DNA of 64,000 nt from NCBI RefSeq assembly GCF_003390325.1, contig NZ_QUOK01000001.1:1-64000 (forward strand). The letters run 5' to 3'. Every line of letters starts with the position of its first letter. Position 1 is the first letter of the stretch. Positions 57,034 to 63,797 of the stretch are shown one piece after another. Position numbers and translations under genes: made by a program. The stretch comes from Rhodohalobacter sp. SW132. Lineage in GTDB: Bacteria; Bacteroidota; Rhodothermia; Balneolales; Balneolaceae. Below the pieces are notes generated by a model. It saw nothing but the letters and a program-made list of their open reading frames with translations. It did no database searches and was not told the origin of the DNA.

Positions 57034-57284
57034 GTCATCGGATGAGTTTTAATCTGAGTTCGATTCATAAATATTTCATTTATTCGGTATCAAGTCTCCC
57101 CTAAAAAGGGGAGATTTAGAGGGGTGTTCATCGGTTTATTCACAGATCTGATGGACATCCCCCCCAATCCCCCTTTTCAAAGGGGGACTTTCTTAACTCT
57201 AATTCAAGAATCGAACTCAGGTTTTTAATAAAAATCGAACCACACCGGATCAAAATCTAAATTATGAATATCTCATCCGATGAC
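57034..57284. repeat. Outer inverted repeat GTCATCGGATGAG around a MITE-like element
   Basis: GTCATCGGATGAG (57034-57046) and CTCATCCGATGAC (57272-57284) are a perfect 13-bp inverted repeat. They enclose the element at 57053-57221. They may be the ends of an older repeat into which the inner element inserted, or a structured target preferred by it. Confidence 0.7.
57053..57221. repeat. MITE-like element with TIR (C)CTGAGTTCGATTC
   Basis: A 169-bp non-coding element with terminal inverted repeats CTGAGTTCGATTC (from 57054) and GAATCGAACTCAG (ending 57220), flanked by GTTTTAA (57046-57052) and TTTTTAA (57222-57228), which look like a 7-bp target duplication with one change. The interior has two GC-rich hairpins (CTCCCC...GGGGAG and CCCCCTTT...AAAGGGGG) and differs from the interior of the 63581 copy. 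Confidence 0.75.
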
Positions 57285-63128: not shown

Positions 63129-63158
63129 CCGCAGGGAGTGATTCTTGCGGTTTTTTTT
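63129..63158 (+). terminator. Intrinsic terminator of the YceI gene
   Basis: CCGCAGGGA (63129-63137) pairs with TTCTTGCGG (63142-63150) with G-T pairs and a 4-nt loop, followed by eight T. It lies 25 bp after the stop at 63104. Because it is before ATG 63190, it also argues against the earlier start candidate at 63145 for the next gene. Confidence 0.92.
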
Positions 63159-63189
63159 GTTTTACTCAACCTATTCTGGAATTCCAATC

Positions 63190-63585
63190 ATGTTTAATCT
63201 TACGTTCGATCACTACACCATTAAAGTTAACAGTCTGGACGAAAGCGCGCGATTTTACAAAGAGGTGCTGAAACTAAAGGAGATCAAAAACCGCACGGAA
63301 AAAGAGTATATCCGATGGTTTTCTCTCGGCGATGGCAGTGAACTTCATGTGGTGGAAGGTGATCAAACCGGAATTGAAACCAATGTTGGGCTGCACCTTG
63401 CGCTCCGGCTAAAAGAGTTTGATGCTTTTATCCGTCAACTTGAGGAGAATGGCGTTCGTCAGCACAACTCAAAGGGTGAGCCGGATCAGATTAACGTCCG
63501 GGCAGACGGAATTCGGCAGGTCTATTTTAAAGATCCGGATGGCTACTGGATTGAGGTAAACGAGGCCGCAATATTGGAAACCTGA
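63190..63585 (+). CDS. VOC superfamily (glyoxalase-like) protein
   Basis: A 131-residue protein with one complete beta-alpha-beta-beta-beta pair set: 'FDHYTIKVNSLDESARFYKEVL' (in parts) with His, 'GSELHVVEGD' with a metal-type His, and 'VYFKDPDGYWIEVNEA' with Glu. The residues suit metal binding, but the reaction (glyoxalase, dioxygenase or resistance type) cannot be told. The start ATG 63190 follows the terminator. The stop codon TGA (63583-63585) lies inside the terminal repeat of a MITE-like element, so insertion has set the present C-terminus. Confidence 0.9.
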   Translation: MFNLTFDHYTIKVNSLDESARFYKEVLKLKEIKNRTEKEYIRWFSLGDGSELHVVEGDQTGIETNVGLHLALRLKEFDAFIRQLEENGVRQHNSKGEPDQINVRADGIRQVYFKDPDGYWIEVNEAAILET

Positions 63586-63790
63586 GTTCGATTCTTAAAT
63601 ATGACGTAAATCATAAAATCAGTCAAACAAGGGCGTCATCTCGCATCCGAGCGTTCGGGACGTGATCTACTTTCCTTAACAAAGGCAGGAGATGCCGGAT
63701 CTAAGTCCGGCATGACATAATTTTTGACGAGTTAGTTTAACTAACGCCCTTTTTTGAACTGATTTTGCCATTTTTTAATCGAACTCAGGT
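63581..63790 (-). repeat. MITE-like element with TIR CCTGAGTTCGATT
   Basis: A 210-bp non-coding element. The left end is CCTGAGTTCGATTC (63581-63594) and the right end AATCGAACTCAGG (63778-63790), a perfect 13-bp terminal inverted repeat. It is flanked directly by TTGGAAA (63574-63580) and TTGGAAG (63791-63797), consistent with a 7-bp target duplication. Inside are GCCGGATCTAAGTCCGGC and GTTAGTT-T-AACTAAC palindromes. The core matches, in reverse complement, the element at 14500-14692. Confidence 0.8.
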
Positions 63791-63797
63791 TGGAAGA

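Follow-up and report, generated by a model that had tools for sequence, protein, structure and literature searches.

Two short repeats in Rhodohalobacter sp. SW132 read as non-autonomous MITEs with the ends of an IS982-family insertion sequence

The first 64,000 nucleotides of contig NZ_QUOK01000001.1 of Rhodohalobacter sp. SW132, here called the window, contain two short stretches that end in the same inverted repeat and have different interiors. This arrangement raises the question of what the two stretches are and what could have moved them. A preliminary description of the window had read them as a MITE-like family, and that reading holds up. The analysis turned up numerous copies with common ends, duplicated targets, a site as it was before insertion and, between the same ends, a transposase gene. 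We put the probability at roughly 95% that both loci are non-autonomous MITEs using the ends of an IS982-family insertion sequence.

Limits, copies and insertion sites of the two elements

The two elements, MITE 1 and MITE 2, and the features around them are listed by window position, with a strand where a feature has one.

57034-57284: 75-bp dispersed repeat (GTCATCGGATGAG...CTCATCCGATGAC) split by MITE 1; 251 = 75 + 171 + 5
57047-57051: target duplication TTTTA of MITE 1, left copy
57052-57222: MITE 1, 171 bp, with IS982-type ends, 14-bp TIRs and an exact 5-bp duplication
57052-57065, plus strand: left TIR of MITE 1, ATCTGAGTTCGATT, 1 mismatch to the consensus
57093-57190: cargo of MITE 1, a palindromic CTCCCC/GGGGAG repeat with 30 genome matches and a folding z of -5.4
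57209-57222, minus strand: right TIR of MITE 1, complement of ACCTGAGTTCGATT
57223-57227: target duplication TTTTA of MITE 1, right copy
63145-63585, plus strand: ORF with its last codons replaced by MITE 2 (empty, ...AAILEEN and stop; occupied, ...AAILET and stop)
63575-63579: target duplication TGGAA of MITE 2, left copy
63580-63790: MITE 2, 211 bp, with IS982-type ends
63580-63593, plus strand: left TIR of MITE 2, which gives a stop codon (ACC TGA) to the interrupted gene
63623-63636, plus strand: inner inverted repeat, left arm, TCAAACAAGGGCGT; the flippable core lies between this arm and the right one
63637-63743: core of MITE 2, CATCTCGC...GGCATGACA..., found in both orientations in the family
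63744-63757, minus strand: inner inverted repeat, right arm, ACGCCCTTTTTTGA
63777-63790, minus strand: right TIR of MITE 2
63791-63795: target duplication TGGAA of MITE 2, right copy

Both inverted pairs of the preliminary description are present, and the repeat, given there as 13 bp, is 14 bp long (consensus ACCTGAGTTCGATT) once the flanking A/T is counted in. The limits were corrected from 57053-57221 and 63581-63790 to 57052-57222 and 63580-63790. The left end of MITE 1 differs by one mismatch from the other three ends of both elements. The near-identical 7-mers described on the flanks proved to be exact 5-mers (TTTTA/TTTTA and TGGAA/TGGAA) plus one base of the TIR and one of the flank. Neither element contains an ORF of 80 aa or more, and their interiors, rightly called different, represent two separate multi-copy families.

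The window alone cannot exclude a chance resemblance, because it has 23 TIR matches at up to 3 mismatches where 20 are expected. The host assembly (G000) is a 45-contig draft of 5.08 Mb and 98% completeness, for which an element inventory was built from pattern searches and fetched stretches. Across it, the 12-mer CTGAGTTCGATT has 54 exact copies (0 for the reversed control), and the 14-mer at up to 2 mismatches has 194 matches (16 for the control), which correspond to the ends of roughly 85-90 elements, many of them decayed or solo. Four of the 54 exact 12-mers were set aside as not belonging to elements, being inside an unrelated coding tandem array (C5:204885-205076). That array (L076 1264-1482; G000 C5:204863-205081) comprises 7.3 copies of a 30-bp coding repeat of the TEFDSIRLDS type within an ORF of more than 930 codons that has several hydrophobic stretches, and the TIR 12-mer occurs there by coincidence. 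Among the 14-mer matches of the host we also observed a recurrent variant end, ACCTGAGTTCTATT (position 11, G to T), which suggests a second subfamily of IS982-ended elements. A literature search for the TIR string itself returned nothing relevant.

Target duplications were scored just outside ACCTGAG...CTCAGGT in 33 distinct inverted pairs with flanks and compared with shuffled flanks. An exact 5-bp duplication was present in 17 of the 33 (shuffle mean 1.5, maximum 6), and 26 had one with at most one mismatch (shuffle mean 7.5). The consensus target TNNNA fits 16 of the 17 exact sites. The many copies that the preliminary description had asked for are there, but the 7-bp duplication it expected of them was rejected, since no excess was seen at 7, 8 or 9 bp among these pairs.

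The insertion site of MITE 1 can be reconstructed from within the genome. The 13-mer GTCATCGGATGAG lies at 57034 and its complement at 57272, with MITE 1 between the halves; deleting the 171 bp of the element and one TTTTA leaves exactly 75 bp, which align with intact copies of a dispersed repeat. This repeat is seen empty at about a dozen other host loci. Its 13-mer has 144 genome matches at up to 1 mismatch (1 for the control), often as 75-bp inverted pairs with the 13-bp ends GTCATCGGATGAG / CTCATCCGATGAC (other copies are found, for example, in L363-L375), and the copies of the 75-bp repeat show no obvious target duplication.

Orthologous loci were compared with the congener G003 alone, as no second flank aligned at the sites in G001 and G002. 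The intergenic space that holds MITE 1 measures 105 bp in G003 versus 322 bp here, and it contains no TIR in G003, where divergence prevents the junction from being placed to the base. G003 likewise lacks a TIR at the locus of MITE 2, yet the space is longer than in the host genome. Deleting MITE 2 restores a reading frame that ends ...AAILEEN and stop; the G003 relative of this ORF reads ...WIEVNEAGLQSS and stop. The empty sites that the preliminary description had asked for therefore exist both as the paralogous 75-bp repeat and as an orthologous locus of G003 that lacks the element.

IS982-family elements that share the ends

The preliminary description could match the TIR to no nameable insertion sequence. 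The TIR does belong to a known family, because transposase-bearing IS982 elements share it. Among 58 relatives searched with the TIR pattern, a member of the same order, G043, has five inverted pairs of identical spacing. They share the 14-bp ends, span 1043 bp each once the outermost A and T are included, and have 5-bp duplications, TATTA and TTATG among them. Each copy encodes an intact 298-aa protein that was identified as an IS982-family transposase (NCBIfam NF033520, 252 bits against a cut-off of 130; Pfam DDE_Tnp_1_3); this is the gene between like ends that the preliminary description had proposed looking for. In two of these copies (L096 and L100) the outer flanks of the one match those of the other once reverse-complemented, a pattern that recombination between the two IS982 copies would leave by inverting the intervening DNA.

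A reference-genome scan with the G043 protein returned relatives in Balneolaceae and Bacteroidota. The 14-mer ACCTGAGTTCGATT is identical at both ends of six of the IS982 loci (L196, L199, L200, L202, L203 and L204) and at the one readable end of three others (L197, L198 and L201), and the elements with these ends have duplications such as TATGA, TCATA and TTCTA. The ends of MITE 1 and MITE 2 are those of the IS982 elements, except for a single mismatched base in the left TIR of MITE 1, and the dispersed host copies share the 5-bp duplication of their presumed parents. A second IS982 subgroup has the end ACGTGAGTTCGA, and G003 carries an intact element of that subgroup.

The published features of the IS982 family are ends that open with AC and carry T at position 9, an end consensus of AC(N)6T(N)5TT, and direct repeats of 2-10 bp (PMC7335449). 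The ends here (ACCTGAGTT...) show the AC start and the T at position 9, and their 5-bp repeats fall within the range; positions 15-16 vary (CT, AA, TA), where the published logo of the best-conserved positions shows TT, which is no strict criterion. A transposase of about 290 aa in an element of 845-1282 bp is found in the 1043-bp partner of G043, whereas the window elements, at 171 and 211 bp, are non-coding; without a transposase they are MITEs rather than insertion sequences.

No autonomous parent was found in the draft host assembly. Profile NF033520 detected no IS982 transposase there, while matching G043 and G003 in the same search, and a protein search detected none either, be it a whole transposase or pieces of one. 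The copies therefore look orphaned, unless an IS982 copy lies in a gap of the 45-contig draft. Within the MITEs themselves, tblastn over the fetched loci of the host genome revealed no transposase remnants. Apart from the ends and a few AT-rich bases, the MITE interiors have nothing in common with the interior of the insertion sequence.

In the mechanism we propose, an IS982 transposase supplied in trans would recognise the 14-bp ends ACCTGAGTTCGATT and would move the DNA between them whatever its content, with insertion at TNNNA producing the 5-bp target duplication. The interiors, as other palindromic intergenic repeats and not transposase remnants, may have been enclosed by IS982 ends and then multiplied together with them, in that probable order. 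Judged from the sequences, mobilisation in trans is the likely route, and it was probably active in the past rather than at present; the activity may be ancient, because many copies are decayed or solo.

Cargo of the elements and alternative readings

Matches in the host genome number 30 for the 98-bp interior of MITE 1 and 35 for the 144-bp interior of MITE 2, and nearly all of the strong matches are bounded by IS982 ends. Among 30 matches to the MITE 1 interior that were examined in congeners, 6 have both ends, 9 one end and 15 none; they include clustered or isolated copies that bear no trace of IS982 ends. Other genera have the same ends around other sequences. The cargo of one of them, G055, is itself repeated, mostly inside IS982 ends, so that the case for cargo outside the ends comes mainly from the congeners G001-G003. 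Compared with shuffles that preserve dinucleotide content, the interiors form much more stable folds (45 elements, median z -5.1, 31 of the 45 below -3), an excess that is weak in other genera.

The interior of MITE 2 is a nested CAGTCCAAAAAGGGCG / CATCTCGC...GGCATGAC family. Its core, between the inner arms CAGTCCAAAAAGGGCG and their complement, occurs in the two orientations at a ratio of 6:6 among 12 family copies, a count of copies with scoreable outer arms that leaves out a duplicate scoring of one locus. When the sequences were re-oriented and placed on a tree, the inverted copies fell into more than one group: four make up one clade (support 0.97), and the inverted copy L174 groups with non-inverted copies (0.97). 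The core would thus have flipped twice or more, unless copies exchanged sequence. On the simplest reading, the flips would come from recombination between the short inverted arms, or from replication switching from one arm to the other.

The fold of the interiors bears on a different account, in which the hairpins of the interior and the inverted ends make up a conserved regulatory or terminator motif, acting in transcription or RNA processing and maintained by selection, and not a transposon. The stability of the interiors and a terminator-like stem-loop in MITE 1 at 57168-57187 speak for such a motif; no terminator-like site was found in MITE 2, and the 5-bp duplications, the 75-bp pre-insertion repeat and a transposase gene between the same ends are not expected of one. 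We rejected this as the main explanation on account of the duplications and the shared insertion sequence ends, and consider it very improbable, although the elements may possibly have gained terminator activity secondarily. It is also unlikely that the mobiliser in this genus was an IS982 element with the related but different end ACGTGAGTTCGAGATAAG. G003 has such an element intact, flanked by a TAAATA duplication and with one difference in its first 12 bp, but the ends of the MITEs are exactly those of the ACCTGAG subgroup, whose elements (G043, L196 and L199-L204) are separate from the ACGTGAG subgroup.

A closer contender concerns how the cargo came to lie within the ends. Rather than being repeats enclosed by forming ends, the interiors may be independent MITEs that nested into one ancestral IS982 MITE, a possibility to which we give somewhat less than even odds. 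Clear cases of nesting exist: in L069 a GAGGCTGTCCAAAAAGGGCG unit sits within a CTCCCC-type element, in its left part, and three MITE 1 family copies (L062, L070 and L071) contain a unit with GGCTGTGAGAAAAT ends. Interiors outside IS982 ends in the congeners fit nesting as well. Against it, little apart from the 14-bp ends is common to the two families, which leaves no single ancestral MITE in view, and no cargo-free MITE was found, except possibly a 98-bp pair in L087. The unit in L062, L070 and L071 (at about 1340-1540 in L071) has ends like GGCTGTGAGAAAAT...ATTTTCTCACAGCC and an interior of the CACGAAG type.

Known systems and biological meaning

Read as IS982-ended MITEs, the two loci belong to a largely familiar class, and the novelty is modest; less expected are the composite nature of the palindromic cargo and the flipping of the core. 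An IS982-derived MITE has already been published, MITECca01 of Cardinium (PMC9769881). Like the elements here, MITECca01, at about 240 bp, has no transposase gene, has inverted ends of the IS982 family, reaches very high copy number and lies mostly in intergenic DNA or in other mobile elements (PMC9769881). It differs in having intact parent copies in the same genome and in keeping subterminal sequence of the parent (PMC9769881), whereas in the host assembly a parent was not detected and the interiors are unrelated palindromic repeats of at least two families. BrickBuilt and other MITEs of Porphyromonas gingivalis are also intergenic, with repeat cargo in inverted ends and a host in the Bacteroidota (PMC4596501). 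This likeness is one of description, and the cargo of BrickBuilt, unlike that found here, is a tandem 23-bp minisatellite (PMC4596501).

These results give the repeat family a name and a probable mobiliser, and reveal a genome with dozens of IS982-ended passengers and yet no detectable IS982 transposase. More tentatively, and at less than even odds, IS982 ends may serve in Balneolota as a general vehicle that has repeatedly enclosed and dispersed unrelated palindromic intergenic repeats. On this view the cargo would differ by lineage, one core would have flipped more than once between its own inverted arms, and borrowed insertion sequence ends would have spread much of the intergenic palindrome load of these genomes. 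From the cargo, it seems that intergenic palindromic repeats of this group could have a way to spread that needs no transposase of their own.
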